This document shows positions 8,729 through 50,582 of a stretch of DNA of 64,000 nucleotides, in pieces. The stretch covers positions 1,426,001 through 1,490,000 of the forward strand of contig NZ_CP046622.1 of NCBI RefSeq assembly GCF_009755665.1, in the 5' to 3' direction. Source of the DNA: Variovorax paradoxus (lineage in GTDB: Bacteria; Pseudomonadota; Gammaproteobacteria; Burkholderiales; Burkholderiaceae_C). The notes under the pieces are model-generated. The model was given only the letters and a program-made list of their open reading frames with translations. It searched no databases and was not told the origin of the DNA. Every line of letters begins with the position of its first letter. The stretch's first letter is position 1. The translations under genes were made by a program, and so were the position numbers.

Positions 8729-8807
8729 GGTCAAACCCCGAAAAGGGCGCGTACAGCGCCATTCGGCCGACAATGCACGCTTCTTTCCTTCTTCGCGCGC
8801 TTGTCCG

Positions 8808-12262: not shown

Positions 12263-12368
12263 CCACCGAATCTATGCCTCTCCCGCGCGAGGCGGTTCTG
12301 TGATTGCGAAACCCTCCCTTCGCCAAATGCAAATGCCGCGCAAGGGGGCGTTCTGTCACGCTGCGGCG

Positions 12369-14696: not shown

Positions 14697-14740
14697 GCCG
14701 GTTGCGTTCGCCCAAGAAATAAACAACAGGAGACAAGCCA

Positions 14741-15733
14741 ATGGAAACCACGGACATCACACGGCGGCAAGCCGTCGCCGCGCTGGCAGGCAGCGCACTG
14801 CTGGCCGCACTGCCTTCGCGCGCCTTCGCACAGCAGCAACAACAGCTGCCGCCGCTCATCAAGCTGGTGGTCGGCTACTCCGCGGGCGGTCCGGTGGATG
14901 GTGCGGCGCGCCTGCTTGCGCCCGCGCTCGGCCAGGAGCTCGGCACGCAGGTCATCGTGGAAAACCGGCCTGGCGCCAGTGGTTCGGTGGGTGGTGACGC
15001 GGTCGCCAAGGCTGCGCCCGATGCCGCGATGCTGTTCTTCGGCGCGAGCCCGACGATCACCATCAACCCGAACATCCAGCGAAAGATGCCCTTCGACCCG
15101 ATGAAGGACCTGACGCCCATCGCGCCGCTGGTGGACTACACCAACGTGCTCGTGGTCAACAAGGACTTGCCGGTGCACAGCGTGGCCGAACTGCTGGCCT
15201 ACGCGAAGGCGCGGCCGGGCAAGGTGTTCTACGGCTCGGCCGGCATCGGCGCCTCGAACCACCTGAGCGGCGCGCTGCTCGAGAAGATGACCGGCGTGCA
15301 GCTCACGCATGTGCCGTACAAGGGCAGCGCGCCCGCCCTGGCCGACGTGATGGGCGGCACCGTGACGATGATGTTCGACATCATCGCCACCTCGCGCCCG
15401 TTCATTCAATCGGGCAAGCTGCGCGCGCTGGCCGTCACATCGCGCCAGCGCAACCGCATGCTGCCCGAGGTGCCGACGATGATCGAATCCGGCGTGGCCG
15501 GGTATGACGTGGGCGGCTGGTTCGGCCTCTACGGCCCCGCGCGCATGGACCCGGCGCTGGTCGCCCGCCTGAATGCGGCCGCGCACAAGGCCATGGCGCG
15601 CGACGATATCGCCAATCGCCTGCGAGAGCAGGGCTACGAAGTGTGGACGGGCGCCGCGGAACTGCTGGCCACCAAGGGCCAGGCCGACCGGAAGCTCTGG
15701 GCCACCGCGTCCAAGGGCATCGAAGCGGAATAG
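14741..15733 (+). CDS. Bug-family substrate-binding protein (tripartite tricarboxylate transport)
   Basis: Periplasmic receptor of the Bug/TctC family (330 aa), expanded in Burkholderiales, which binds carboxylic acids. The N terminus has a twin-arginine-like signal peptide (TRRQAVAALAG...) ending near SRAFAQ, and the mature part shows VVGYSAGGPVDGAARLL and VENRPGASG, both typical. No tctA/tctB membrane genes lie nearby, so it is an orphan receptor, as is common in this lineage. It sits 44 bases after the fused dehydrogenase and 3 bases before the CoA ligase, suggesting that it captures the acid which the ligase activates. Confidence 0.92.
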   Translation: METTDITRRQAVAALAGSALLAALPSRAFAQQQQQLPPLIKLVVGYSAGGPVDGAARLLAPALGQELGTQVIVENRPGASGSVGGDAVAKAAPDAAMLFFGASPTITINPNIQRKMPFDPMKDLTPIAPLVDYTNVLVVNKDLPVHSVAELLAYAKARPGKVFYGSAGIGASNHLSGALLEKMTGVQLTHVPYKGSAPALADVMGGTVTMMFDIIATSRPFIQSGKLRALAVTSRQRNRMLPEVPTMIESGVAGYDVGGWFGLYGPARMDPALVARLNAAAHKAMARDDIANRLREQGYEVWTGAAELLATKGQADRKLWATASKGIEAE

Positions 15734-23470: not shown

Positions 23471-24310
23471 ATGAGTGACGAAGTCGAAGGCATGACCATT
23501 GCGCTGACGCCGGTGCAGATGGCCGGCGTTCTGGGCGGGCAGGACGTGCCCGAATCCGCCAGCCTGAGCAACCGGCTGTGGGGTACGGTCGGGCTGGTGG
23601 GCGGTGTCGTGGAACTGGTGGGCGCCGGCGTGCTGTGCCTCGCGCCCGAGCCCACGATGGTCACCAAGGCCGGCTGCGTGGTGCTGGGCGTGCACGGCTT
23701 CGATACCCTGGCCACCTCGGGCCGCCAGGTCTGGACGGGCACCCCGCAGCGCACCGCCACCGCAGTTACCGCCAGCTCGGCGGCCGAGGCGCTGGGGGCT
23801 TCGCGCGAAACGGCCGACAGCATCGGGCTTGCGGTCGACGTGGCGGTGCCGCTGGTGGTGGCCGCGGGGCTCGGAGCCGCCCGCATCATTGCCGTGACGC
23901 GCGGCGGCCGCATTCGCCTGGCCGAGCATGAAGCCGCCGCCGGATCGAGGCTCGGCGGCCACACCATGGCGCGGCATGTCGGCCAGACCGACGCGCAACT
24001 GCTGGCCAGGGTGCGAACCGCCACCCGGCCGGGCCCCAAGGCCGTATCTACGTTTACCGACCTGGCCACGGCGGAACGCGCGATCACCGAAACCCTGCGC
24101 GCCAATGCAGCCGCGGTGCAGGCGTGGTCACGCGGTGCGGCAGCGGGCAGCAAGTCGCCGGGGCTGGAGCACGTGCTGGGCTACGTGGTGGGGCGGGGCG
24201 TGCAGTTCGGCAGCACGGCCGTCAATGATCTTTCCGGAGTGCGGATCATCCTCAAGATGGAAAGCTACAACGGCAAGCCGTTCTACATTCTGACGGCGTA
24301 TCCGATCTGA
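23471..24310 (+). CDS. Polymorphic toxin with C-terminal RNase A-like domain
   Basis: 279 residues in two parts. Residues 1-140 are a hydrophobic Gly/Ala-rich pre-toxin region (GLVGGVVELVGAGVLCLAP and AVDVAVPLVVAAGLGAA), of the kind found ahead of toxin domains in secreted effectors. Residues 150-279 match the bacterial RNase A-like toxin domain first characterised in Yersinia CdiA-CT: GGHTMARHVG (H164, R168, H169), STFTDLATAERAI, and the closing YILTAYPI with T275-x-Y277, equivalent to the Thr-x-Tyr catalytic pair. It should degrade RNA in target cells. No secretion gene, PAAR or chaperone is adjacent. No same-strand immunity gene follows; a convergent gene of unknown function ends 16 bases away. 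Confidence 0.78.
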   Translation: MSDEVEGMTIALTPVQMAGVLGGQDVPESASLSNRLWGTVGLVGGVVELVGAGVLCLAPEPTMVTKAGCVVLGVHGFDTLATSGRQVWTGTPQRTATAVTASSAAEALGASRETADSIGLAVDVAVPLVVAAGLGAARIIAVTRGGRIRLAEHEAAAGSRLGGHTMARHVGQTDAQLLARVRTATRPGPKAVSTFTDLATAERAITETLRANAAAVQAWSRGAAAGSKSPGLEHVLGYVVGRGVQFGSTAVNDLSGVRIILKMESYNGKPFYILTAYPI

Positions 24311-37254: not shown

Positions 37255-38787
37255 ATGAATAAGAATTTGCACCGTATTGTGTTCAATGCGAAGCGCGGGC
37301 TGCGCATGGTCGTGCAAGAAACGGCCAAGAGCACCGGTAAGGGATCCTCCAAGGCCACGACCGTGGCGGCCGGTGCGGCTGCCTTTGCGCCGATGCTCGT
37401 GGGCGCCGCGCTTGCAGGCATGCTGTCAGCCTCGCCCGCTCAAGCCCAGATCGTCGGTGCCCCCAACGTTCCCGGCAACCTGCGGCCCACCGTGATGGTC
37501 GCACCCAACGGCGTGCCGCTCGTCAACATCCAGACGCCCAGCGCCGCCGGTGTCAGCAGAAATATATTCAACCAGTTCAATGTTGCCCCCAATGGGGCCA
37601 TCCTGAACAACAGCAGAACAAGTGTAGGTACGCAGCTTGGCGGCATCGTCCAGGGCAATCCGTATCTCGCGACCGGCCCCGCACGCATCATCGTCAACGA
37701 GGTAAACGGCGGCAGCCCGAGCCAGCTGCGCGGCTACATCGAAGTCGCGGGACAGCGTGCCGAAGTGATCATCGCCAACCCTGCGGGCATCAGCATCAAT
37801 GGCGGCGGCTTCATCAACGCGTCTCGCGCCACGGTGACCACGGGCACGCCGCAATTCAACGCCATCGGCGGCCTCGACAGCTTCCTCGTGCGCGGCGGCA
37901 CCGTCACCATCGATGGTGCGGGCCTCGATGCCAGCAAAACGGACTACGCGGCCATCCTGGCTCGCGCCGTGCAGCTCAATGCAGCCATCTACGCCACCGA
38001 TCTCCAGGTGGTCACAGGCGCGAACCAGGTCAGCGCCGACCACAGCCAGATCACGCCAACCGCCGGCACCGGCGCCGCTCCCACCTTTGCTCTGGACGTG
38101 GCCGCGCTCGGCGGCATGTACGCCGGCAAGATCACGCTCATCGGCACCGAGGCTGGCCTGGGCGTGCGCAATGCCGGCAGCATTGGCGCCAGCACCGGCA
38201 GCCTGGTCGTGACAGCCGCAGGTCGGCTGGAGAACACTGGCACCCTCGAGGGCCAGAGCGTGCAACTGGCCAGCACCGGTGGCGACATCGACAACCGCGG
38301 CGGCATCATCCGCCAGACCAGCAGCGTTGCCCTGACCATCGCCGCACCGACACTGAGCAACACCAGCGGCGGCGTGATTGGCCTCGAGCCGGCACCGGCA
38401 CCGACCGCCGGAACGGGCGGTACCGGCACAGGCGGCGCGTCGGGCGCCGGGACAGGATCGACGTCCTCCGGCAGCACCCCATCGACGACCGGCGGAACGA
38501 CCGCGACGACAAGTGCGCCCGCCCCGGCACCAGCGCCCATCGAACCGGGCCGCATCACTGCCGCAGGGACGATCTGGAACGACGGCGGCAAGATCTACGC
38601 TGGCGGCCCCATCACGCTGCAAAGCGCCAACCTGATCAACAACGGCGGCACGCTGAGCGTCGCCAGCATGGCCGTGAGCCAGCCGACGTTCGACAACCAC
38701 GGCGGCACGCTGAATGTCAGCAACGGCTTCAGCGCCAATGTCGATCGGTTCGACAACACTGGCGGCACGCTCAACGCGGGAGCCTGA
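37255..38787 (+). CDS. cdiA: CDI exoprotein (TpsA/BcpA/CdiA), N-terminal part, ends at a frameshift
   Basis: 510 residues forming the secretion end of a two-partner-secretion exoprotein. Residues 1-25 are an extended signal peptide (MNKNLHRIVFNAKRG), then a hydrophobic core ending SASPAQA. The TPS domain follows with NQFNV, NPYL, and IIANPAGISINGGGF, the signals recognised by the TpsB transporter. A Pro/Thr/Gly linker precedes the first hemagglutinin repeats (DNTGGTLN type). The frame stops at TGA 38785-38787, while the repeat pattern continues uninterrupted in another frame from about 38780, so one base appears to be missing. As read, the product would be secreted without shaft or toxin. Confidence 0.88.
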   Translation: MNKNLHRIVFNAKRGLRMVVQETAKSTGKGSSKATTVAAGAAAFAPMLVGAALAGMLSASPAQAQIVGAPNVPGNLRPTVMVAPNGVPLVNIQTPSAAGVSRNIFNQFNVAPNGAILNNSRTSVGTQLGGIVQGNPYLATGPARIIVNEVNGGSPSQLRGYIEVAGQRAEVIIANPAGISINGGGFINASRATVTTGTPQFNAIGGLDSFLVRGGTVTIDGAGLDASKTDYAAILARAVQLNAAIYATDLQVVTGANQVSADHSQITPTAGTGAAPTFALDVAALGGMYAGKITLIGTEAGLGVRNAGSIGASTGSLVVTAAGRLENTGTLEGQSVQLASTGGDIDNRGGIIRQTSSVALTIAAPTLSNTSGGVIGLEPAPAPTAGTGGTGTGGASGAGTGSTSSGSTPSTTGGTTATTSAPAPAPAPIEPGRITAAGTIWNDGGKIYAGGPITLQSANLINNGGTLSVASMAVSQPTFDNHGGTLNVSNGFSANVDRFDNTGGTLNAGA

Positions 38788-38858
38788 ACATCACCACGAC
38801 CGGCGACCTGGTCAACGTCGATGGCAAGCTGACCGGTGCGTCCGATGCCACCCTGGCG

Positions 38859-41800
38859 GTGAGCGGCCAAGCCGACAACACGCGCGGGACGATTTCGGCA
38901 ACGGGCGCGCTGACGGCCAATGTGGCGGGTGCGCTCAACAACACCGGCGGCACGCTGGTGGCGAACCAGGGCGTTGCGCTCGGCGCGGGCAGCCTGGACA
39001 ACACGCAGGGCAGCATCCAGTCGGCGCGAGCCGGGGTGCAGCTGGCGGTGGCGAGCCAACTGACCAACGGCAGCGGCGGCACGATCGGGGCGGCCACCGA
39101 CCTGAAGGTACAAGCCAGCTCGCTCGCCAACGGCGGCAGCCTGCGCGGCGGCAACGATGTCGGCGTTGCGGTCGGCGGGGCGCTGACCAACGACGGCAGC
39201 ATCACGGCCGGACGGCACGCGACGGTCGCCGCAGGCAGCCTGCAAAGCGGCACCACAGGCGTGCTGGGCGCGGGCATCCAGAGCGACGGCCAACTCGGTG
39301 CGGCGGGTGACCTGGTGGTGACGACGACTGGCGCCCTGGTCGCCAACGGGACCAACCTGGCGGCCGGCAACGCCACGCTGCAGGGCGCGAGTGTCGACCT
39401 CTCGGCCAGCCAGACCAGCGCGGCCAACATCGCCGTCACGGCCACGCAGGTCAACGTGACCACCAGCGGCGCGACCGTGGCCACGCCCGGCACGCTCGCC
39501 ATCAGTGCCAACGGCAACGCCGCGCAGACCCTCGTCAACGCGGCCGGGCAACTCAACGCCGGCCAACTGCAGGTCAACGTCGCGAACCTCGCCAACACCA
39601 ACGGCGGCCAGATCGTGCAGACCGGCACCGGAGCAACGGTCATCGCGACCAGCGGCACCCTGAACAACGACGGCGGGCGCATCGCCAGCAACGGCCAGGA
39701 CCTCACGCTGCAAGGCACCAGCATCACCAACGCAGCCGGCAAGATCGAGCATGCCGGCACCGGCACGCTCGCCGTCGCGGGCGGCAACTTCAACGGCGCC
39801 AATGGCCAGATCACGGCCAACGGCGCGCTGACCGTGGCCCTGTCGGGCGCCTTCAGCCAGGATGGCGGCACGATCAGCGCCAAGCAGATCACCATCGATG
39901 CAGGCTCTTTGAGCAATCGCGGCGGCCAGCTGATCCAGACCGGCGCCGACGCCACGCGCGTCACGGTGGTGAGCGCGCTGGACAACAGCGGCGGGACGCT
40001 GGCCAGCAACGGCAACACGACCATCGCGGCCGGCAGCCTGGCCAACCAGGGCGGCACCATTCGGGCTGCCGAGACCTCCGACCTCGGCCTGACCGTGGGC
40101 GGCTTGCTCGACAACAGCAACCAGGGCGTGATCGGCGCGGGCGGCAGCACCACCATCGCGGCTGGCAGCCTGAACAACAACGCGGGCAGCGTGACCGCTG
40201 TGGGTGATCTGAACGCCACCATCGGCGGGGCCGCAACCAACGTGGGCGGCACGCTGGCGGCCAACGGCAACACCACGCTCGTGGCCGGCACGCTGGACAA
40301 CAGCAGCGGAACGGCCGCGGCCGTCACGGGCAACCTGAGCGTCACGACCTCGGGTGCGACGACGAACAACGGCGGCACCCTGCAGGCCGGCGGCGCGACC
40401 ACGCTGCTCAATAGCGGACTGAGCAATGTCGGGGGCAAGGCTTTCGGCAACAGCCTGTCCGTGAACACGCGCGCGAACGGGCAGAACAATGCGCTGAACA
40501 ACACGCAAGGCACGCTGGCCGCCACTACCACGGTGGCAGTGAGCTCGGGCGCACTCGCCAATGATGCGGGCCTGATCCAGTCGGGCGGCGCGATGACCAT
40601 CAACACCAATGGTCAGAACCTCAGCAACACCAATGCGGCAGGCTATGCCTCGGGCCAAGGCGGCATCACCAGCGGCGATACGCTCAGCCTGACTACCGGC
40701 GCGGTCACCAACACCGCCGGCTTCATTGGCGCCAAGAACGCATTGGTCGCCGACACGCAGGCCTTCTCCAATACGGGTGGAGGCCAGGTGCTCGGGCAAT
40801 CCACTGTGGCCATCAACACCAACGGGGCAGGCTACGACAACAGCGGCGGGCAGACGCAGGCGGTGGGCGATCTCAGCATCAACGCCGGCAGCATCGTCAA
40901 CAACGGCGGCCTCGTCCGGTCGATCGGCACGACGACGCTGAACGCCGGCACCATCGTCAACACGAACACGTTGGGCACTGACCAAGGCATCGAAGGCAAG
41001 AACCTGGCCATCGGCGTTGGCGATCTGAACAACACCTCGGGCGCCATCCGCGCCGACGTCAACGCCACCCTCACCAGCGGCGGCACCATCAACAACACGA
41101 ACGGATTGATCTCAGCCTGCAACGAACTGGGCATTCTCGATCCGAAGCGTGCGAATCCCGCTGCCAAGACGCTGAACGTGATCAACACGGGCGGCACCCT
41201 GGTCGCCGGCACGGCCGCCGCACTCGGCGCAGACGGCAAGCAGATTGCTGCTTTCGGCAAATTGGAGATCGACGCCAAGAGCTTCAGCGGCGACGGCACG
41301 ACCGTCGGCGTCAACGACCTGAGCATCGCACTCGCGCAGGACGTGACGAACAACGCCGAGGTCAAGGCGGGCGGCAATCTGACCTACGCGACCACTGGCA
41401 AGCTGACCAACAACGGCAAGCTGCTCGCGGGCGGCACGGTCACCGCCAGCGGCAACGAGGTCGACAACACCGTGACCGGCGAGATCACGGGCGACACCAC
41501 CATCGTCAGCGCAGCCAGTACGCTAACCAACCGGGGGCTGATCGACGGCTACAACACGCAGATCAACGGTGGCACGGTCAACAATGTGGGCACGGGCCGC
41601 ATCTATGGCGACATCGTTTCGGTCGCAGCAGGCACGCTGAACAACGACAGCGAGACCCTCGGTAGCGAGACCAGGGCGGGCACCATTGCTTCGCGCGATA
41701 CCTTGGACATTGGTGCCCAGACCATCAACAACCGCGAGCACGCACTGCTCTTCAGCGTGGGTGAGATGTTCATCGGCGGCGGCCTGGATGCCAACCGCCA

Positions 41801-44800
41801 GGCCGTCGGCAAAGGCGGCACGCTCAACAACCTGAGCGCCACGGTCGAATCGCTGGGCGACATGTCCATCACGATGGGCCAAATCAACAACTTCGACAGC
41901 CACTTCGCCGTGGTCCGGACCAGCAGCGGTCCGATCAATGGCGATCACACCATCACGCCGCTCGGAGGGATCGAACTCCCCGCCGACCAGTTCGTGCTGG
42001 ACCGCGGCGGCCGAACCTGGACGACCATCATCAATGGCCAGGTGCTAAGTGGCAGCGGCTGGATCGAACGCCAGTACACAACCACCACCGAGGTCGACCA
42101 GCCCGCCAATCCGCCCGAACCGGGCCGCATCTACTCGGGCGGCAACATGACCATCGACGGCAAGCTGCGCAACCGCGACAGCCAGGTGATGGCGGGCGGC
42201 ACCTTCACCATCGACCCGGCCAATGTCGACAATACGCCGACGCAGGGTCAGAAAATCGTGACCGTCGGCGGCCTGGAGGTCTATGCCCCTCCCGAGAAGG
42301 GCAACAACCTGGTGCCTGGTTTTATCCCGGAGCAAAAATCGGTCTACACGATCGACGTGGGCGCGAGCTGCATCAACGACTGCACCGGTGTGACCCCCTC
42401 GGGCACGAAGCTGAGTGCCGCCCAAGGCGTCGCGGTCAGCGACCGTGCCGGCATGGCCGGCGCAGTGACTGCGGGCACACGTGCACGCGCCATCGTGGAG
42501 GTGCCATCGGCGGTCGGAGGCTCCATCAAGACGAGCGGCAATACCGCCAATGGCGCGGGCGGCGCCGACGGCGCCTCAGGCACGGGCGGCACCAGCACCA
42601 TCGCGCTGGTGGTGCGCACCAGCCTGCCCAACACGACGGTTCCCACCACCAGCCTCTTCGGCATTCACGCCGGTCCTGGCGGCTACCTGATCGAGACCGA
42701 TCCTCGCTTCACTGACCGTCGTCGTTGGCTCAGCAGTGATTACATGCTGAACAGCCTCGGACAAGACCCGAACAACATCCTCAAGCGCCTGGGTGACGGC
42801 TTCTACGAGCAGAAGCTCATCCGAGAGCAAGTGGCCCAACTCACGGGTTATCGCTATCTCGACGGTTACTACAGTGATGAGGAGCAGTACACCGCCCTGA
42901 TGAATGCGGGCGTGACTTTCGCGAAGGAATACGGCCTGCGCCCCGGCATCGCGCTGACACCGGCACAGATGGCCCAACTCACCAGCGACATCGTCTGGCT
43001 GGTCGAGCAGACCGTGACCCTGCCCGATGGCACGACCCAGCAGGTGCTCGTACCGCAGGTGTATGTGCGCGTGCAGCCCGGCGACATCACGGGCTCGGGC
43101 AGCGTGCTGTCGGCCGACCGGACGATCATCAAGGGCAAGGGCGACCTGACCAACAGCGGCACCATCGCCGGGCGCACCTTGGTTTCCATCAACGCCGACA
43201 ACATCAACAACCTCGGCGGCCGCATCGCCGGCGGCAGCGTCGCGCTGGATGCAACCAACGACATCAACAACATCGGCGGCACCATCACCGCGGCCAACTC
43301 CGTGTCACTGAAGGCCGGACACGACATCAACATCGACACCACCACCAGCGCACAAAAGGGCTGGCTGGCCAACAAGACCAACATCGACCGCGTCGCGGGC
43401 GTTTACGTCACCAATCCTGGCGGCACGCTGGTCGCGAGCGCGGGCAACGACGTGAACGTGATCGGCGGCATCCTGTCGAACAAGGGGCCGGGCAGCTTCA
43501 CCTCCGTGACGGCCGGCAAGAACATCAACCTGGGCACCGTCACCGAATCCAGCAGCCGACTGTCGATCTTCAACGCCGGCACCTACCACGGCGATGCTTC
43601 CAGCAAGGAAACCGGCAGCACCATCGTCGGCAACGGCACCGTGTCGCTCAACGCCAAGGGCGGTGACATCAATGCGCGAGCGGCGACGCTGGATTCCGGA
43701 AGCGGGTTGCTGAGTCTTGCCGCGACGGGGGACATCAACATCATGTCGGGCGTCGAAACGCATGCCACCATGGGCGCCGGCCAGTCGACCAAGAAGGGAT
43801 TTCTCAAGTCCACTACCAACAGCGTTTCGGGCACCTCCGAGGTCACGACCACCATTGGCAGCCGTCTCTCGGGCCAAGCTATCGGCCTGTCGGCCGGCCG
43901 CGATATCAACGTCGTGGGCAGCGACATCGAAGCGCGAGGGAACGCCACACTTACAGCCGGTCGCAACGTGAACATCGTGTCTGCGGTGGACAGCGTTTCC
44001 GGAAGTCTGGATCGTTCCCGCGAGACCAAGGGCTTCATCCTTCCGAAGCTGGGCGGCTCCAGCATCGACAGCGGAATCCGCTACGAGCAGCATGCCGAAG
44101 TCTCAAGCCAGGTCGAGCGGGCCTCCAACGTCAAGGCGGGCGGAAACCTGGGCGTCACTGCAGGCGAGCAGGTCAATATCTACGCCAGCAATCTCAGCGC
44201 TGGTGAAGACCTGAAGATCTCGGGCAAGGAAGTGACGATCCTGAGTGGCATCAACCAAGTCCACAAAGAAATCGGGAGCAAGAACTCCAAGAAGTCCATT
44301 GGCACGATGGGCAACTTCAAGCGCGTCGGCAAGGGCATGAACGGCAAGGACAGTGTGACCGACACGCTCGATCAGACTACGCTCGCCGCGGCCACGCTGA
44401 ATGGAAAGAATGTCACCGTCATCGCCACCGATGGCGATCTGACGCTGGGCGCGGCGCGTATCAAGGCCCAGGAAACCGTGGCACTGAATGCGCCCAAGGG
44501 GGCCGTGAACTTCGACGTAGTCAAGACAGGTATCGAACTGGGCCAGAGCCGGGGCGAGAGCGATCCGATGTACCAGCGCACGCGCGACACCGGTGCGCAT
44601 GTTGAAGTCGCCAACTACACCCAGATCGAAAGCAAAACGCTGACGCTGGACACCCCGACAGTGAACGTTCAGGTGGGACAGAACGCGATCAAGGGGCCGG
44701 GCGACATCTATGTCGCACAACAAACCATCGAGCAGGTGCTGCAGAGCCAGCGCAGCCAGCCCGGCATGGGGTGGCTGAACCAGATCCAGAACGATCCGGC

Positions 44801-46646
44801 GCTCAACAAGGTGCCGATCAACTGGCAAGGCGTGCCGCTGGAGCAGCGCCAGTGGGCGGAGAGCCAGGGCAGCCTGACCGAGGCCGGTGGCGCGGTGGTG
44901 GCGATCGTGGCCACTGTCATGACATGGGGAGCCGCCAGCAGCATCGGAACGGTGGCCGGCAGCGCCGTTGGGGGCGGCACCACAGGCGCCGTGGTCGGAG
45001 CCGCGGTCGCTGCCGGCGTATCGAGCATCGCCTCGCAAGCCGCAGTGGGCCTGATTAACCACAACGGCAATATCAGCGCGGTGCTGGAAGATCTGGCTTC
45101 GAGCCGGGGGATCAAGAACATTGCCACTGCGATGGTGACGGCTGGAGCCGTGCAAGGGCTCAACATCGGTCTTGGCCTGAGCGGCGCAGCCTCCACGTTG
45201 ACCACCCCTCAACTCATCAGTCGGGGCCTGATCGACGGTGCGGCCGCGGGCCTGATCCGTGCGGCCATCAATGGCACGAGCCTCGAAACCGAATTGGCCA
45301 ATGGGATGCTGAATGGTCTCCTCAGTTCGGCTGCAGCAGGCGGAGCCAATTGGATCGGCGCAAACACTGAAGGGTTTGCTCGAGAACTGGCGCATGCGCT
45401 GGTGGGCTGTCTCGCTGGCGTGGGGAGTGCGGCAGTCAATGGGGGAACCAATTCGGGCAGCGCCTGTAGCGCCGGTGCTGTGGGGGCCGTCGTGGGCCAC
45501 TTGGCGGGGCAATATTTCAATCCTACCGGTGACCTCGCGCTGAGCGCCGAGAGCATCGCGCTGGGACAAATGGTGGGCGCACTTGCAGGCTTGCTGGTGG
45601 GCGGTGATGCGGCCAGTGTGAACATCGCTTCCGCCGCTGGCGGCAACGCGGTGGAGAACAATTGGCTCAGCGGAGAGCAGCAAAGGCAGCGGGACGCCGA
45701 GCTTGCAGGTTGCGCGAAGGAACCCAACCCGGCCAGCTGCCAGTTCCGGGTCTCCGAACGTTGGAGCATGGTGGACTACAACCAGCAGGCGGTGTACGAC
45801 GCCTTGTCGGCTGCCAAAGAGAGAGCATTGCTAAAGCCAACCGCAGCCAACGTGATCGCGCTCAACAACGCGATCACGGACATGGTCAGCCTGTACGGAG
45901 AGTTCCAAGCAACGGGAGACACACGCGGCGCTCGCACGATCAGCGCGGCGTTGGTGTCCGGCGTCCTGTCTAGAGCACAAAGCTGTGCCGCGATACAAGG
46001 CGGTCCCGGCTGCGGCACGATTGTGCTCACGTCCGCAGAACGTAGTGCGGTAGCGAACGCTTTTGTGGAGTTTGGGCTTGCCGCCGAAGGCAACATCGCT
46101 GCGAGCGACCTACGCACGATACGGGCTATTGGCGAAGCGATCGGATCGGGCTCAGCTTCGGCGTGGCGGACAATTTCAGCGGCATTTGAGGACCTAAGTG
46201 CCTCCGCCCGTCAGGTGGTCCGGCAATTGGTGCGACCAGAGGGGACCCCGGCTAATTTAGGCACGAGACTGGGTGGTGATAAGGACACTATCAACGCGGC
46301 AAAATGGCTGAAGCCTGAGCCTGGCTACTACGATGTCGTTATTCACGGAAATGCTGAATCAGCCATGATTCTTAGAAATGGGGAGTGGATCAAGGTAGAT
46401 CAACGTGCATTAGCCACCTATATTGGGAAGCAATCTGACTATTCAGGAGGGGCCGTGCGACTAGCATCGTGCTCGACTGGTTCATGCAGTACGGCGTATG
46501 CCCAAGATCTTGCAAATAAACTAGGTGTTACAGTCATGGCTCCTACCGATTTATTGTTCGTTTATCCAAATGGTGTTGTGGTTATTGGCCCTAATTCGTG
46601 GACCAATACCGGGAGTTGGCAGGTATTTAAGCCCACCCCCAATTAA
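38859..46646 (+). CDS. cdiA: CDI exoprotein (TpsA/BcpA/CdiA), shaft and C-terminal toxin part
   Basis: 2,595 codons from the first usable start; the homologous frame is open from about 38770. Residues 1-1100 are filamentous hemagglutinin repeats (LNNTGG type). Around 1275-1390 is a conserved CdiA module (YLIETDPRFT, RLGDGFYEQKL, VLVPQVYVRV). A second hemagglutinin repeat block spans about 1400-1900, and a DUF637-like pre-toxin follows at 1950-2100. The VENN motif is at 2265-2268. The last 110 residues are a variable toxin domain with H2496 (VVIHGN) and C2538 (LASCSTGS), a spacing typical of caspase/CHAT-type cysteine peptidases. Codon use turns AT-rich from about 46,240, marking a swapped toxin tip. 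Translation needs repair of the upstream frameshift or an internal start. Confidence 0.9.
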   Translation: MSGQADNTRGTISATGALTANVAGALNNTGGTLVANQGVALGAGSLDNTQGSIQSARAGVQLAVASQLTNGSGGTIGAATDLKVQASSLANGGSLRGGNDVGVAVGGALTNDGSITAGRHATVAAGSLQSGTTGVLGAGIQSDGQLGAAGDLVVTTTGALVANGTNLAAGNATLQGASVDLSASQTSAANIAVTATQVNVTTSGATVATPGTLAISANGNAAQTLVNAAGQLNAGQLQVNVANLANTNGGQIVQTGTGATVIATSGTLNNDGGRIASNGQDLTLQGTSITNAAGKIEHAGTGTLAVAGGNFNGANGQITANGALTVALSGAFSQDGGTISAKQITIDAGSLSNRGGQLIQTGADATRVTVVSALDNSGGTLASNGNTTIAAGSLANQGGTIRAAETSDLGLTVGGLLDNSNQGVIGAGGSTTIAAGSLNNNAGSVTAVGDLNATIGGAATNVGGTLAANGNTTLVAGTLDNSSGTAAAVTGNLSVTTSGATTNNGGTLQAGGATTLLNSGLSNVGGKAFGNSLSVNTRANGQNNALNNTQGTLAATTTVAVSSGALANDAGLIQSGGAMTINTNGQNLSNTNAAGYASGQGGITSGDTLSLTTGAVTNTAGFIGAKNALVADTQAFSNTGGGQVLGQSTVAINTNGAGYDNSGGQTQAVGDLSINAGSIVNNGGLVRSIGTTTLNAGTIVNTNTLGTDQGIEGKNLAIGVGDLNNTSGAIRADVNATLTSGGTINNTNGLISACNELGILDPKRANPAAKTLNVINTGGTLVAGTAAALGADGKQIAAFGKLEIDAKSFSGDGTTVGVNDLSIALAQDVTNNAEVKAGGNLTYATTGKLTNNGKLLAGGTVTASGNEVDNTVTGEITGDTTIVSAASTLTNRGLIDGYNTQINGGTVNNVGTGRIYGDIVSVAAGTLNNDSETLGSETRAGTIASRDTLDIGAQTINNREHALLFSVGEMFIGGGLDANRQAVGKGGTLNNLSATVESLGDMSITMGQINNFDSHFAVVRTSSGPINGDHTITPLGGIELPADQFVLDRGGRTWTTIINGQVLSGSGWIERQYTTTTEVDQPANPPEPGRIYSGGNMTIDGKLRNRDSQVMAGGTFTIDPANVDNTPTQGQKIVTVGGLEVYAPPEKGNNLVPGFIPEQKSVYTIDVGASCINDCTGVTPSGTKLSAAQGVAVSDRAGMAGAVTAGTRARAIVEVPSAVGGSIKTSGNTANGAGGADGASGTGGTSTIALVVRTSLPNTTVPTTSLFGIHAGPGGYLIETDPRFTDRRRWLSSDYMLNSLGQDPNNILKRLGDGFYEQKLIREQVAQLTGYRYLDGYYSDEEQYTALMNAGVTFAKEYGLRPGIALTPAQMAQLTSDIVWLVEQTVTLPDGTTQQVLVPQVYVRVQPGDITGSGSVLSADRTIIKGKGDLTNSGTIAGRTLVSINADNINNLGGRIAGGSVALDATNDINNIGGTITAANSVSLKAGHDINIDTTTSAQKGWLANKTNIDRVAGVYVTNPGGTLVASAGNDVNVIGGILSNKGPGSFTSVTAGKNINLGTVTESSSRLSIFNAGTYHGDASSKETGSTIVGNGTVSLNAKGGDINARAATLDSGSGLLSLAATGDINIMSGVETHATMGAGQSTKKGFLKSTTNSVSGTSEVTTTIGSRLSGQAIGLSAGRDINVVGSDIEARGNATLTAGRNVNIVSAVDSVSGSLDRSRETKGFILPKLGGSSIDSGIRYEQHAEVSSQVERASNVKAGGNLGVTAGEQVNIYASNLSAGEDLKISGKEVTILSGINQVHKEIGSKNSKKSIGTMGNFKRVGKGMNGKDSVTDTLDQTTLAAATLNGKNVTVIATDGDLTLGAARIKAQETVALNAPKGAVNFDVVKTGIELGQSRGESDPMYQRTRDTGAHVEVANYTQIESKTLTLDTPTVNVQVGQNAIKGPGDIYVAQQTIEQVLQSQRSQPGMGWLNQIQNDPALNKVPINWQGVPLEQRQWAESQGSLTEAGGAVVAIVATVMTWGAASSIGTVAGSAVGGGTTGAVVGAAVAAGVSSIASQAAVGLINHNGNISAVLEDLASSRGIKNIATAMVTAGAVQGLNIGLGLSGAASTLTTPQLISRGLIDGAAAGLIRAAINGTSLETELANGMLNGLLSSAAAGGANWIGANTEGFARELAHALVGCLAGVGSAAVNGGTNSGSACSAGAVGAVVGHLAGQYFNPTGDLALSAESIALGQMVGALAGLLVGGDAASVNIASAAGGNAVENNWLSGEQQRQRDAELAGCAKEPNPASCQFRVSERWSMVDYNQQAVYDALSAAKERALLKPTAANVIALNNAITDMVSLYGEFQATGDTRGARTISAALVSGVLSRAQSCAAIQGGPGCGTIVLTSAERSAVANAFVEFGLAAEGNIAASDLRTIRAIGEAIGSGSASAWRTISAAFEDLSASARQVVRQLVRPEGTPANLGTRLGGDKDTINAAKWLKPEPGYYDVVIHGNAESAMILRNGEWIKVDQRALATYIGKQSDYSGGAVRLASCSTGSCSTAYAQDLANKLGVTVMAPTDLLFVYPNGVVVIGPNSWTNTGSWQVFKPTPN

Positions 46647-46664
46647 ATTGAAAGAGCTATTTTT

Positions 46665-47027
46665 ATGTTGATTCCCGTCGGAATGTTTAAAGAGCATTGT
46701 GGGGAGAGGTTTCCCTCTATCCTGGATTTTGAAGGAGTATCGCTAGACTCGGAGGAGCAGCAAAAGGTTGTGAAATATCTTGCCTCATGCCCGGTAGTTA
46801 TTGCGAGTCCTGGCGTTATCCAAAGTGTTTTTGACAACTCCAAAATTGCAGGGACACCGTCCATGCGAACTGATGGGTGTTGGATTTGGCAGGATACATA
46901 TGCTTATTATGTGAGTCAGCAAAAGGTCAACGTGGACAAGGACTTTTTGCATCACATACGGGAGCGTTTATATATCACCCCAATTGACGAGGAAATTGAT
47001 TTCTCGGCAATTAAATTCCCGTGGTAA
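46665..47027 (+). CDS. cdiI: Candidate CDI immunity protein
   Basis: 120-residue soluble protein starting 18 bases after the exoprotein stop, exactly where CdiI/BcpI lies. It is acidic, has no signal peptide, and contains MRTDGCWIWQDTYAYYV, a Thr-Asp-Gly-x-Trp pattern seen in other small immunity-like proteins. Base composition is strongly AT-rich compared with the exoprotein shaft and matches the toxin tip, as expected of a co-inherited toxin-immunity pair. The family could not be named; the call rests on position, size and composition. Confidence 0.72.
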   Translation: MLIPVGMFKEHCGERFPSILDFEGVSLDSEEQQKVVKYLASCPVVIASPGVIQSVFDNSKIAGTPSMRTDGCWIWQDTYAYYVSQQKVNVDKDFLHHIRERLYITPIDEEIDFSAIKFPW

Positions 47028-47082
47028 TTTTGCAAATTCGCCCAGTTTTGGCGAAATATATGCAGCCTTGAGGTCGACGTCG

Positions 47083-47319
47083 ATGTATAAATTGCGAAAA
47101 ATTAATTATGCCGAAAAATCCAAATACACAGTAAATCTGGAGAAGGATGGCGACGTGATTGCGGCAATGTGCGAAGTCAAAGAAATCGAGAGCGACACAA
47201 TCGAAGGACTTGAACTTATTTCATTTGAGTCATCACGCTTTGATGATTTGTGCATTAAGGGGTTGGTTGATTTGAGGCTGCTAAGAGCAGCAATATTCTC
47301 ATTTCACCGATGTGCATGA
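47083..47319 (+). CDS. Small AT-rich protein in the CDI cassette
   Basis: 78 residues, start taken at an ATG with GAGG nine bases upstream; a longer frame back to 46984 would overlap the immunity gene. The protein is mixed charged with likely beta strands (KYTVNLEKDGDVIAAMCEV). It shares the AT-rich composition of the immunity gene, so it arrived with the cassette. It might be a second immunity protein, a leftover from an earlier toxin module, or a non-coding stretch. No family recognised. Confidence 0.5.
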   Translation: MYKLRKINYAEKSKYTVNLEKDGDVIAAMCEVKEIESDTIEGLELISFESSRFDDLCIKGLVDLRLLRAAIFSFHRCA

Positions 47320-47410
47320 GTCTTGCTCACTCGGCGCAACAAGCAAGATTTTGGCTCTCTGCCTGCAGAAAATTAAATGAATTCGGTAGTCAACCGGAAA
47401 TAAGGGAAAA

Positions 47411-48013
47411 ATGAAGCTGTCACACATTCATTCCGTTCGGAATATCCCTCTCGCGCTGGTGCTCGCCACTAGCACGTTGCTCGCCGGTTGCGCCACTCGC
47501 CTTTCGCAGCCCGTCACCGGCTACACCTGCTGCAACCTGCGGCCCGACTACGGCTGGGTCTCCAGCACCAACATGCTGGGCGGCCCCATCGTGCCGTTCG
47601 GCGAACCCGCGGTGCTCGACACCATGAAGCGGGACCGCTACCTCTACGGCACCATCGGCAGCGACTACGTCTCGCTGCGCGACGACACATCGCGCAGCAG
47701 GGAAGACATGCTGCGCTGGGCGCGCCAGATCGTGGTGCCCGCCGATCCCAAGCTGACACTCGCCAGCTGGAGTCCCGAGGTGCAGAAGGCCGTGTACTCC
47801 GCCAAGGTCATGGTCGGCATGACCCGGCCCCAGGTGCTGATGGCGCTGAGCTATCCCTCGCGCAACGACACCAAGGACCTGAACGCCGGCAGCTGGCGCT
47901 ACTGGACGGTGCAGGAAGACGAGCCGGTCGATGTGCTCTTCGGCGCCGACGGCACCGTCAGCGGCTTCTCCGGCAAGCCGTCGGCGGTTCGCACGGTCGA
48001 ATTCCGGCGCTGA
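47411..48013 (+). CDS. Lipoprotein with BamE-like domain, BcpO position
   Basis: 200-residue lipoprotein: signal peptide with lipobox LLAGC at residues 22-26, then an unusual Cys-Cys pair (GYTCCNLRPDYG) and a C-terminal segment VGMTRPQVLMALSYPSRND...WRYW resembling the BamE/SmpA/OmlA fold. It sits between the immunity genes and the transporter gene, the place of bcpO in Burkholderia bcpAIOB loci, where a small lipoprotein supports CDI. The GC-rich composition matches the exoprotein shaft and cdiB, so it belongs to the stable part of the locus. Role in outer-membrane delivery is inferred. Confidence 0.72.
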   Translation: MKLSHIHSVRNIPLALVLATSTLLAGCATRLSQPVTGYTCCNLRPDYGWVSSTNMLGGPIVPFGEPAVLDTMKRDRYLYGTIGSDYVSLRDDTSRSREDMLRWARQIVVPADPKLTLASWSPEVQKAVYSAKVMVGMTRPQVLMALSYPSRNDTKDLNAGSWRYWTVQEDEPVDVLFGADGTVSGFSGKPSAVRTVEFRR

Positions 48014-48018
48014 TCACC

Positions 48019-49812
48019 ATGGTGCATTCCTCGGTCGTGCCTCGGCGCACGCGCATGGCGCTGGCCGTGGCTCTCACTGCTTCTCCGTTGTGGGCGGTCG
48101 CGCAGCAAACGCCCACCACCCCCCAATCCTTCGTCGAACAACAACGCCAGCAGGAACGCGAACGCGCCCTGCGCGAGCAGAACGAGCGCACCGTCGACCA
48201 GCGCCTGCAGGCGGCCCCGCCCGCACCGGTGGCACGCATTCCCGCATCCGAAGCCCCGTGCTTCCGCATCGATCGCGTGCTGCTGGTGGGCGAGCAGGCC
48301 GAATTGTTCCAATGGGCAGTTTCCGACTTGTCCGGTCCTGACGGCAACGATTCGCCGCTCGGCCACTGCCTGGGCACCGCAGGCGTGAACGTGGTGCTCG
48401 CCCGCGCCCAGCAGGCGGCCATCGCGCGCGGCTTCGTCACCACCCGGGTGCTGGCCGCGCCGCAGGATCTCTCCACCGGCACCCTGACCCTGTCGCTGGT
48501 GCCCGGGCGCATCGCGGCCATCCGCCTGACGCCGGATTCTTCCTCGACGCTGCTGGGCAGCGGCGCCTTGCTGGGTTCGGCCATTCCCGCCCGGCCGGGC
48601 GCTCTCTTGAACCTGCGCGACATCGAGCAGGGGCTGGAGAACCTGAAGCGCGCCCCCACGGCCGAGGCCGACATCCAGATCGAGCCCTCGACGGCACCCA
48701 ACGCCCGGCCGGGCGACAGCGACCTGGTGGTCAAGTACGTGCAGGCCAAGAAGTGGCGCGTGGCCCTGAGCCTGGACGACAGCGGCACCAAGGCCACGGG
48801 CCGCTACCAGGCCGGCGCCACGGTGTCGGTGGACAACCCCTTCGGGCTGAACGACCTGTTCTACCTGAGCGCCAACCACAGCATCAACAGCCACTTTCTC
48901 TCGGAGCCGAGCTACGGCACCGAGGGCCAGACGGTGCACTATTCGCTGCCGTACGGTTACTGGATGCTCGGGTTCACGGCCTCGAACAGCCAGTACCACC
49001 AGAGCGTGGCGGGGCTGAACCAGGACTATGTCTACGCGGGCAAGACCAACAACGCCGAAGTCAAGCTCTCGCGCCTGCTGTACCGCGACCAGAGCCGCAA
49101 GACCACGCTGGCGCTCAAGGGCTTCCGGCGCGAGTCGCGCAACTTCGTGGACGACACCGAGGTCGATGTGCAGCACCGGGTGGTGGGTGGCTGGGAGCTC
49201 GGCCTGAACCACAAGGAGTTCATCGGCGAGGCCACGCTGGAAGGAACGCTGGCGCTCAAGCACGGCACGGGCGGCTTTGGCGCCCGGACCTCGCCGCAGG
49301 AGATCTACCACCGCAACCACCCTGACGAGCCGCTGGAAGGCACTTCGCGCATGAAGCTGTACACGGCCGAGGTGAGCCTGAATGCGCCGTTCAAACTCGG
49401 GGCGCAGAAGCTGCGCTATTCGGGGCTGATCCGCGCGCAGTGGAACCGCACGCCGCTGATGCCGCAGGACCGGTTCGCCATCGGCGGGCGCTACACGGTG
49501 CGCGGCTTCGATGGCGAGACGAGCCTGATGGGGGAGCGGGGCTGGCTGATCCGCAACGACATCGGGTGGGCGATCCCCACGGGGTCAGGCCAGAGCGGGG
49601 CGGAACTGTATGTCGGCGCCGACTACGGGCATGTGGGCGGGCGCTCGACGGTGGATGGGCTGGGGCGCAGCCTCGCGGGCGCGGTCATTGGCGTGCGGGG
49701 GCAGTGGAGCAAGCTGAGCTATGACTTCTTCATGGGGGCGCCGATCCGCAAGCCCGAGGGGTATCGCACGGCCAGGACCACGTTTGGGTTCAATCTCAAC
49801 GCAAGTTTCTGA
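48019..49812 (+). CDS. cdiB: TpsB outer-membrane transporter (CdiB/BcpB, FhaC type)
   Basis: 597-residue Omp85-superfamily transporter that secretes the exoprotein. Signal peptide to about residue 29 (PLWAVAQ), an N-terminal helix rich in Gln/Arg/Glu (QQRQQERERALREQNERT), two POTRA domains (CFRIDRVLLVGE and VTTRVLAAPQDLSTGTLTL), then a 16-strand barrel with the conserved RFAIGGRYTVRGFDGE loop motif that plugs the pore. It starts 5 bases after the lipoprotein gene. Gene order A-I-O-B is that of Burkholderia, not that of E. coli cdiBAI. Confidence 0.94.
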   Translation: MVHSSVVPRRTRMALAVALTASPLWAVAQQTPTTPQSFVEQQRQQERERALREQNERTVDQRLQAAPPAPVARIPASEAPCFRIDRVLLVGEQAELFQWAVSDLSGPDGNDSPLGHCLGTAGVNVVLARAQQAAIARGFVTTRVLAAPQDLSTGTLTLSLVPGRIAAIRLTPDSSSTLLGSGALLGSAIPARPGALLNLRDIEQGLENLKRAPTAEADIQIEPSTAPNARPGDSDLVVKYVQAKKWRVALSLDDSGTKATGRYQAGATVSVDNPFGLNDLFYLSANHSINSHFLSEPSYGTEGQTVHYSLPYGYWMLGFTASNSQYHQSVAGLNQDYVYAGKTNNAEVKLSRLLYRDQSRKTTLALKGFRRESRNFVDDTEVDVQHRVVGGWELGLNHKEFIGEATLEGTLALKHGTGGFGARTSPQEIYHRNHPDEPLEGTSRMKLYTAEVSLNAPFKLGAQKLRYSGLIRAQWNRTPLMPQDRFAIGGRYTVRGFDGETSLMGERGWLIRNDIGWAIPTGSGQSGAELYVGADYGHVGGRSTVDGLGRSLAGAVIGVRGQWSKLSYDFFMGAPIRKPEGYRTARTTFGFNLNASF

Positions 49813-49820
49813 GCCTGGTC

Positions 49821-50582
49821 ATGCGCAAATGGACTCGCAAGTCCAGCCTGATGTATGGCATCGACAGGTTGGATGCCAGTTGGCTTGTCTCCCTCATTCG
49901 CGACCGGGAGCGACTGGTCAAATCTTTCGCATTCAGCATCTACGGCGGCCCCGAGGCGGCCTTGAGGGCAGCCCAGGCGTGGCGCGACGAGGTGCTGCGC
50001 ACCCATCCTCCGCTGCTCAAACAGGAGAAAGCACAGCGGGCACGCAATGACAACAAGTCCGGCGTGCCGGGTGTGGTGTGTCTGTACAAGCCGGATGGCA
50101 CAGTGGAGCGATGGCTCGCGAAAACGCAGCTGGAACCAGGGAAGATTCTGCAGAAGAGTTTTGCCGTGGGCCGCTATGGACGCCAGGCCAAGGCGCTGGC
50201 AATCGTGGAACGCCAACGGCAGCTCGCGCAGATGACGGGGCATGTGATCCTCCATCCAGCCGCGGACCCCAGCAGGGTCCCGCCGCCTGCCAAGGTACGG
50301 GCCAATCCGCCGGCCATCCATCGTGTCGAGGTCTTGCGGCGGGACAACACGACCGGCATCGCTGGCGTGTCGTGCAAATTGAGCCCGGACGGCCACCCGC
50401 GCGTCTGGGTCGCCAAGACCGTGCTCCCCTCCGGCCAGACACTCCGGAAGGATTTTTCTGTCGCACGCCACGGCGATCGGGCCCAGGCCCTTGCCATCGC
50501 GGAGCGCCAGAAGCAGCTGCTGCAGAGAGCGGAATTTACGGCCGCCGGGAAGTCCCGAGGGGGACGTAGTTCTCGCTCATGA
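49821..50582 (+). CDS. Protein with three AP2-like repeats
   Basis: 253 residues containing three copies of an AP2/ERF-like DNA-binding unit: residues about 10-60 (YGIDRLDASWLVSLIRD, with GGPEAALRAAQAWRDE), 75-140 (NKSGVPGVVCLYKPDG, with YGRQAKALAIVERQRQL) and 180-240 (NTTGIAGVSCKLSPDG, with HGDRAQALAIAERQKQL). The Gly-Val-x-Gly-Val start and Tyr/His-Gly...Ala...Ala helix are AP2 hallmarks. It starts 8 bases after the transporter stop, so it is in the CDI operon and may regulate it; that is inference. Its last 47 bases overlap the 3' end of the next, convergent gene. Confidence 0.75.
   Translation: MRKWTRKSSLMYGIDRLDASWLVSLIRDRERLVKSFAFSIYGGPEAALRAAQAWRDEVLRTHPPLLKQEKAQRARNDNKSGVPGVVCLYKPDGTVERWLAKTQLEPGKILQKSFAVGRYGRQAKALAIVERQRQLAQMTGHVILHPAADPSRVPPPAKVRANPPAIHRVEVLRRDNTTGIAGVSCKLSPDGHPRVWVAKTVLPSGQTLRKDFSVARHGDRAQALAIAERQKQLLQRAEFTAAGKSRGGRSSRS

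Follow-up and report, generated by a model that had tools for sequence, protein, structure and literature searches.

A predicted Variovorax contact-dependent inhibition locus with a bcpAIOB-like gene order, a transporter of the cdiBAI lineage and a BamE-like lipoprotein

Positions 1,426,001 to 1,490,000 of the one-contig, 5.57 Mb genome of Variovorax paradoxus (NCBI RefSeq assembly GCF_009755665.1, contig NZ_CP046622.1; C1:1426001-1490000 in our labelling), a stretch of 64,000 nucleotides referred to here as the window, contain a predicted contact-dependent inhibition (CDI) locus. Its genes code, in this order and all on the + strand, for an exoprotein (A, TpsA/CdiA-like), an immunity protein (I), a small protein, a lipoprotein (O) and the transporter TpsB (B). 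We consider it likely that this Variovorax CDI locus belongs to the cdiBAI lineage, that its A-I-(orphans)-lipoprotein-B order arose within Variovorax/Pseudacidovorax and converged on that of Burkholderia bcpAIOB, and that a BamE-like lipoprotein assists TpsB. TpsB would export the filamentous exoprotein, the C-terminal tip would enter a neighbouring cell on contact and inhibit its growth, and the gene just 3' of the tip would protect kin. The lipoprotein, with its BamE-like region, is probably an outer-membrane accessory that works independently of the toxin rather than the immunity protein of the tip, and most likely aids the Omp85-family TpsB in folding or exporting its long substrate, much as has been proposed for BcpO. 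Throughout, A-B and B-A denote gene order, and L- and G-numbers are our labels for loci and genomes.

Gene order was scored for each locus by whether the two-partner secretion (TPS) domain lies 5' or 3' of TpsB; ten loci were labelled A-B on an exoprotein body lying upstream, and seven with no TPS domain in reach (L032, L143, L186, L194, L209, L210 and L215) were left unlabelled. The relatives of the window TpsB belong to Variovorax and, less closely, to Pseudacidovorax (25 loci). In Variovorax loci with a TpsB at least 82% identical, the TPS domain lies upstream wherever it is in reach. The five Burkholderia-type loci, three from Pseudacidovorax, the distant locus L214 and L175, on a plasmid of Variovorax SRS16, also have it upstream. 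It lies downstream in Variovorax loci at 58–70% TpsB identity and in L205 at 47%. Genome G375 carries both orders (L135, A-B; L191, B-A), in contrast to Anderson 2012, where the two locus types are said never to have been met in a single strain (PMC3415462).

A phylogeny of TpsB, which an earlier note on this DNA had proposed as a check on its label 'Burkholderia-type bcpAIOB', placed the window TpsB with B-A systems and not with Burkholderia BcpB. In a tree of 65 TpsB rows, which leaves out six long-branch rows (L214 among them), the seven unlabelled rows and 18 of the 30 A-B rows, the 12 Variovorax/Pseudacidovorax A-B loci form one clade (97/99) and the five BcpB proteins another (100/100), and forcing the two together costs 29 log units (approximately unbiased (AU) test, p-AU 0.028). 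The window TpsB is 34–38% identical to those of the five Burkholderia-type loci. The TPS-domain tree (51 rows, two short rows dropped) likewise has the Burkholderia set as one clade (100/100); here Variovorax A-B and B-A rows are mixed, with five changes of the A-B label, and 12 of 14 A-B rows fall within a 21-row set that also holds nine B-A rows (96/94). The corresponding union test (p-AU 0.029) is less telling, since the A-B rows are not one clade in this tree. With BcpB as the query, none of 399 genomes of the GTDB family matched at E 1e-180, and six of 389 genomes of the order matched at E 1e-150. Judged from these trees, the window TpsB is separate from BcpB and part of the E. coli cdiBAI-type lineage with B-A order, and the Variovorax A-B loci are most likely derived from B-A relatives. 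Because TpsB lies in the B-A lineage and the TPS domain is nested among B-A loci, the order common to the Variovorax loci and Burkholderia bcpAIOB is most likely convergent. L214 (in G126), a distant A-B locus outside the Variovorax clade, is possibly a third origin of the order. In another locus (L242, G384 contig 18) a TpsB relic (483-1142) lies just 5' of A and an intact TpsB 3' of it; a transitional locus was considered and set aside, as the relic is most similar to the TpsB downstream of it in L242 (87%), could have come from a tandem duplication and does not show how the order was reversed.

The A-I-B order in Variovorax is already published: one sentence of PMC4364669 gives cdiAIB for this genus, and the window locus has that arrangement. 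The passage concerned gives no Variovorax lipoprotein, phylogeny or cassette borders, and it pairs the order with a lack of orphan modules, whereas several loci studied here have extra small genes between I and B. A review passage (PMC9086364) ascribes cdiAIB to most beta-proteobacteria except Neisseria, which the B-A-ordered relatives do not bear out. Expression of CDI genes has been reported, in the text available to us, for a Variovorax consortium strain (PMC5911999). An under-described branch, one of the two origins suggested by the earlier note, is thus a fair description, with that one sentence and the review statement in print as far as these sources go. Its other suggestion, a recent transfer, is rejected on the four paralogous loci in the genome and the spread through the genus. 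The genome has six TPS domains and six TpsB-like genes. A precedes B in four loci, whose TpsB proteins are 91–97% identical to that of the window: the window locus, L015 (3378-aa A), L016 (A broken; a 160-aa DUF2846 lipoprotein) and L017 (2842-aa A; a 230-aa lipoprotein). The genes between A and B differ in each, the window's lipoprotein being found solely at the window locus, and the remaining two TpsB genes (25–30% identity) sit 5' of their A. Among the matches listed, 34 of 101 genus genomes have a TpsB at least 82% identical over at least 80% of the query.

The lipoprotein of the window and its relatives (family 1) carry a Cys-Cys pair at residues 40-41 that is invariant in nine of nine aligned members. 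The C-terminal region aligns along most of BamE/SmpA (PF04355; VGMT..QV..L..P...NTW.Y), and unlike BamE the protein has about 100 extra N-terminal residues that include the Cys-Cys pair. The 200 residues and the Cys-Cys pair are as the earlier note had them, and its BamE likeness is weakly true: the direct Pfam match has an E-value of 0.026 and 14.8 bits, under the gathering cut-off of 23.2. Relatives in L138 (2.7e-4, 21.1 bits) and L137 (6.4e-4, 19.9 bits) are also under it, and a paralogue of about 35% identity in the window's genome is above it (27.6 bits), as are three other genes there. Of the 16 PDB matches that a profile of nine family members gave up to E 1, 15 were BamE or 'Small protein A', which we take to be an older name of BamE; the 15 are for the most part variants of a single protein. 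From this ranking and the intermediate sequence, with no significant direct match, we conclude that residues ~131–192 probably form a degenerate BamE domain.

Family 1 at 66% identity or more, fragments included, occurs in 15 of 101 genus genomes among the matches listed, and by coordinates it lies directly 5' of a TpsB gene in 11 of the 15. Exceptions in placement are L137 (B-A-I-x-lipoprotein), L138 (lipoprotein alone) and L136 (A, then the lipoprotein, near a contig start). Across the wider taxonomic family of the host, 20 of 299 genomes have any match to the lipoprotein, and within the genus relatives of about 35% identity are widespread (any match in 64 of 101 genus genomes). Closer matches outside the genus lie 0.5 kb 3' of TpsB (L143) or beside TPS and TpsB fragments (L146); three others (L142, L144, L145) have neither TPS nor TpsB in reach, and no match was found on plasmids. 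In L138 the family-1 gene (8318-8917) has no exoprotein or TpsB match within ~8-9 kb.

TPS export is usually held to need TpsB alone, BcpO being a known exception, with an activity described as unknown (PMC3415462, PMC9086364, as far as their accessible text goes). We found an open reading frame (ORF) with a lipobox within 450 nt 5' of TpsB in 20 of 46 A-B, three of 54 B-A and three of 12 Burkholderia-type loci. The A-B/B-A contrast (Fisher p 7.5e-6) is nominal, the loci being related; order was assumed for 14 of the 46 A-B loci, which have 1.5 kb of flank only, and for four of the 54 B-A loci, which have no TPS domain. L078 and L039 look like one locus, and L017 and L097, which did not fit the lipobox pattern, were left out of the count. 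The 20 lipoproteins in this slot of A-B loci fall into family 1 (10), family 2 (4), family 3 (2) and four singletons, with no blastp matches across families among those compared. In Pfam, family 3 comes closest to BamE (E 0.0062, below the cut-off), and both its PDB matches are BamE (E 0.26 and 0.4); since families 1 and 3 align with an hhalign probability of 3%, the BamE likeness of the two rests on separate matches. In L020, L024 and L028 a family-3 lipoprotein lies directly 5' of a family-1 lipoprotein, a tandem of two BamE-like families before TpsB. Family 2, with relatives also among the B-A loci (L260 and L263), shows weak kinship to the 213–243-aa slot lipoproteins of Paraburkholderia loci (L174, L227; hhalign probability 68.5%, E 4.6e-5, 79 columns), and a single lipoprotein family may thus work in both lineages.

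Outside A-B loci, too, lipoproteins occur next to TpsB. The gap between TpsB and exoprotein exceeds 350 nt in 14 of 50 B-A loci; the strict pattern finds two lipoproteins there, and by eye nine of the 14 gaps, i.e. nine of the 50 loci, open with a signal peptide that ends in a lipobox-like site, for instance HACGGG, QACGGG or QGCGGG (L158, L173, L189, L190, L192, L197, L199, L201 and L202; read by eye except L158 and L199, several with poly-Gly after the lipobox). L017 has a similar poly-Gly lipoprotein 3' of its TpsB. Within 3 kb 3' of the exoprotein, three of 17 readable B-A loci (20 fetched, three unreadable) have a lipobox ORF, one of them membrane-protein-like by eye. The B-A locus L254 has three tandem lipoprotein ORFs 3' of its exoprotein, perhaps immunity lipoproteins like that of L017.

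A tentative extension, to which we would give rather less than an even chance, is that the position next to TpsB serves as a functional slot and is not the seat of one gene family. Unrelated lipoprotein families, including two that are BamE-like, would have been recruited repeatedly, at times as tandem pairs, before TpsB in A-B loci and after it in B-A loci, and would act on the Omp85 protein TpsB as the lipoproteins of the β-barrel assembly machinery (BAM) act on BamA. BcpO would then be an instance of this, and A-I-O-B would have re-arisen in Variovorax. The tandem BamE-like lipoproteins and the B-A lipoproteins after TpsB partly bolster this idea. It is weakened by the little effect of class II bcpO deletions and by the one-sidedness of the contrast before TpsB. 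If BamE-like lipoproteins do join TpsB repeatedly, accessories of the BcpO type gain a testable mechanism, and if gene order converges, 'Burkholderia-type' is to be named by lineage and not by order. Among the literature matches listed and the text consulted, with most subscription papers outside that scope, we met no account of a lipoprotein slot that recurs beside TpsB, nor of the gene order having arisen by convergence. The accessory gene CdiC of class IV cdiBCAI operons (PMC9086364, in the part consulted) is comparable in being an extra gene in a CDI operon. The Enterobacter and Rahnella loci examined have a lysine-acyltransferase between B and A; unlike the acyltransferase CdiC, the accessory in the window is a lipoprotein.

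The lipoprotein and TpsB also appear to mark where cassettes are exchanged. Followed leftward from TpsB, the DNA stays similar to the window as far as 47462-47501, close to the codon of the lipobox Cys (47489), in 12 of the 14 loci that have the lipoprotein and are unfragmented; in the other two the limit is at 47398 (L133) and 47410 (L028). In lipoprotein-less loci this similarity ends at 48084-48121, the start of mature TpsB, in eight of eight compared. The first ~30 residues of TpsB from the window and L015 are 27% identical, the mature part 98%, and family-1 lipoproteins average 39% identity in the signal and 82% in the mature part (36 pairs). For the start of TpsB, identity is 56% among six loci with the lipoprotein, a set that lacks L131 and L132, against 36% among 14 loci without it and 26% between the two sets. 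Fast signal-peptide evolution can hardly explain 27% beside 98%, whereas exchange up to the border can. By this comparison, tip-immunity cassettes are swapped between conserved flanks, with a right border near the signal/mature junction of the first conserved gene, i.e. the lipoprotein if present and otherwise TpsB. In L243, a displaced 5' TpsB piece (12234-12626) stands ahead of a full TpsB (13469-15220), as if a cassette with its own TpsB start had been inserted.

The exoprotein has the ESPR and TPS domains and filamentous haemagglutinin (FHA)-type repeats of a CDI exoprotein, accompanied by TpsB, and ends in a variable tip with a cognate immunity gene. Homologues of the tip occur on five plasmid records (from Rhizobium at 38% identity, Streptomyces at 42%, Rhodococcus, E. 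coli and, as a fragment, Rhizobium again) and, weakly, in three of 398 other genomes of the GTDB family, and homologues of the 120-aa gene on ten plasmid records. The two are adjacent on CP050516, NZ_CP108578 and NZ_CP025014, plasmids that span two phyla; the other two tip records and seven immunity records showed no partner at the thresholds used. These adjacencies argue that tip and 120-aa gene are a real toxin-immunity pair. In Streptomyces, the tip homologue is preceded by a stretch ending YYVLAGATPVLVHN, which we take to be typical of HINT pretoxin domains. An alignment of five tips has a conserved Cys in all five and a His in the four that reach the position; these residues suggest that the tip is probably a cysteine-peptidase-like enzyme. 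The His-Gly after one hydrophobic stretch and the Ser-Cys after another presumably correspond to the signature of clan CD cysteine peptidases.

As assembled, the window copy is unable to make the full exoprotein, and its tip is not exported. The gene is split over two frames near 38.78 kb, a split that had been missed earlier, with the repeats and tip read in a frame different from that of the ESPR and TPS domains, whereas the paralogues L015 and L017 have one unbroken frame across the matching stretch. The TPS-bearing frame is shorter than 2100 aa in six of 17 loci checked (window, L016, L021, L036, L038, L131), some perhaps truly short. A programmed frameshift is unsupported, because the breaks of L016, L021 and L131 sit elsewhere. 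The window copy is probably disabled, and without reads an assembly error may account for the break. It is close to an even chance that the locus is decaying, with a broken exoprotein and its other genes as passengers homogenised with the three paralogous loci. The frame break, the short frames in other loci and the near-identity of the mature TpsB to that of L015 speak for decay; against it, the remaining genes are open, as is the 2595-codon exoprotein remainder, the TpsB could serve the unbroken paralogous exoproteins, and the assembly may be at fault. Decay concerns the state of this copy and can be combined with a cdiBAI-lineage origin.

Membership in bcpAIOB by order alone is rejected on the TpsB and TPS trees. 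That the locus is nevertheless a true Burkholderia bcpAIOB member, inherited or transferred, with an enlarged BcpO, seems improbable, although it shares the gene order with a lipoprotein in the O place. As in class I BcpO, whose variation is stated in a passage of Anderson 2012 to be confined to the signal peptide (PMC3415462), the lipoprotein has a variable signal and a conserved mature part, and the locus shares with bcpAIOB the predicted outer-membrane lipoprotein 5' of TpsB and the variable tip and immunity genes. The Paraburkholderia slot lipoproteins, of 213–243 aa and weakly akin to family 2, favour it too, and the motif ahead of the tip argues little against it: the window has VENN in place of Nx(E/Q)LYN, a weak criterion, as among the five Burkholderia-type loci one has Nx(E/Q)LYN and one VENN. 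VENN was present in three of three gamma-proteobacterial loci read; in Variovorax A-B loci, where many frames were unread, it was found solely in the window locus, with NEVTNN in three others. The trees speak against membership, and in blastp the window lipoprotein has no similarity to small ORFs before BcpB-like genes at 16 loci (best E 2.7; the type B. thailandensis BcpO was not among them), in line with the earlier note's remark that it is not obviously the small BcpO (200 aa versus 73–74 aa for class I BcpO). With E. coli cdiBAI, the window locus shares the TpsB and TPS-domain lineage, VENN and an immunity gene directly 3' of the tip; unlike cdiBAI, B follows A and I, with a lipoprotein in between.

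The lipoprotein could instead be a second immunity protein against an envelope-acting toxin, which we regard as unlikely. The 230-aa lipoprotein of L017 also accompanies the same tip in L133 (77%) and at L041/L253, a B-A locus (50%), and hence is probably an immunity protein; as it travels with its tip, it was dropped as an accessory. Family 1 behaves otherwise, being conserved in a single block with TpsB. Taking the longest upstream frame as the exoprotein (the broken L021 and L131 not counted, L147 not scorable), no two of the ten family-1 loci whose exoprotein end is readable have matching tips, and near-identical tips occur with and without it (L133 with, L017 without, 86%; L024 with, L029 without, 94%). 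By these comparisons family 1 is independent of the tip, which disfavours an immunity function. An ordinary FHA-type adhesin without a toxin is very improbable: the exoprotein does have FHA repeats, but tips vary between loci, and tip and immunity homologues travel paired in unrelated hosts. Kinship with tipless FhaB adhesins, which the earlier note would have counted against a CDI locus, was not found; the other B-A exoprotein of this genome, not directly followed by any gene on its strand, has a TpsB about 30% identical.

Several points weigh against a cdiBAI-lineage locus with a TpsB-assisting lipoprotein. The AU p-values are moderate and the tested groups were prompted by an earlier tree. 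With L214 included, in a 96-row TpsB tree, A-B order is not one clade: as L214 stands apart, the order takes two changes in addition to the bcp clade. L137 (B-A-I-x-lipoprotein), L138 (lipoprotein alone) and L143 (lipoprotein after TpsB) are exceptions to the order. Class II bcpO genes are described, in the part of PMC7662968 available, as unlike each other and dispensable, their deletion having little effect. The slot contrast is one-sided, because the place before TpsB in a B-A locus is the outer edge of the operon. For BamE, the window lipoprotein is itself below the cut-off and is not listed in a genome scan at E 0.1, the best PDB match of the family profile has an E-value of 0.27, and the AlphaFold model (pLDDT 37) is too poor for use of its fold. 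The window tip has no PDB sequence match, with a best E-value of 0.28 for the tip profile and weak, scattered family matches, and its AlphaFold model (pLDDT 41) is likewise too poor for use. The two motifs separate Burkholderia-type from other loci poorly and, barring an assembly error, the frame break means no tip secretion by this copy.

Features of the locus in the window (positions in the 64,000-nucleotide stretch)
Feature	Position	Strand	Evidence or remark
Exoprotein, both pieces	37255-46646	+	two open frames
Exoprotein N-terminal piece, 510 aa: ESPR signal peptide and TPS domain	37255..38787	+	Pfam ESPR 2.6e-11 (residues 1-48), TPS 3.1e-52 (74-326)
Frame-break region of exoprotein gene	38770..38858	+	stop of first frame 38785-38787; coding resumes in other frame
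Rest of exoprotein, with FHA-type repeats, pretoxin region and tip; 2595 aa counted from first possible start in frame	38859..46646	+	TIGR01731 repeats, 11 stretches; Fil_haemagg_2 7.5e-13
VENN motif ahead of variable tip	45651..45662	+	
Toxin tip (predicted)	46209..46646	+	conserved His 46344-46346 (VVIHG) and Cys 46470-46472 (SC.TG), alignment of 5 tips
Immunity protein candidate, 120 aa	46665..47027	+	homologue adjoining tip homologue on 3 plasmids
Small gene, 78 aa; possibly orphan immunity gene	47083..47319	+	no family match
Predicted outer-membrane lipoprotein, 200 aa	47411..48013	+	lipobox LAGC, Cys27 = 47489-47491, Ala at +2; BamE-like C-terminal region ~131-192
TpsB/CdiB outer-membrane transporter, 597 aa, two POTRA domains	48019..49812	+	ShlB 2e-104, POTRA_3 9.3e-16, POTRA_2 6.4e-12
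AP2-like gene, 253 aa, recurrent neighbour 3' of TpsB	49821..50582	+	AP2 2e-7, 31.7 bits, under cut-off 33.3

The earlier note had the order of the five genes, the Comamonadaceae chromosome (Variovorax), the variable tip and the immunity gene right; what fell was the Burkholderia type. Its contrast in base composition is also confirmed, with a G+C fraction of 0.66–0.67 in A, 0.66 in the lipoprotein gene and 0.68 in TpsB, and of 0.56 from VENN to the end of A, 0.45 in the immunity gene and 0.40 in the small gene, for which tblastn gave no match across 25 named loci. The span it gave covers the A-to-B genes and also takes in the AP2-like gene, which is foreign to bcpAIOB. An AP2-like gene lies within about 3.5 kb 3' of TpsB in 15 of 34 scored loci (window, L016, L017, L020-L023, L026-L028, L031, L039, L043, L131 and L132), a list that includes one B-A locus and some loci with little room. 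The window's genome has such genes at four places, three of them beside CDI loci. The gene may be a regulator or a mobility factor; the literature search returned nothing joining AP2 with the terms contact-dependent and hemagglutinin. In L174 and L180 a DUF746 gene takes its place. Finally, in L185 a plasmid annotation predicts an OXA-678 resistance gene (23917-24216) where a CDI exoprotein ends; the two overlap, and the prediction is probably wrong.

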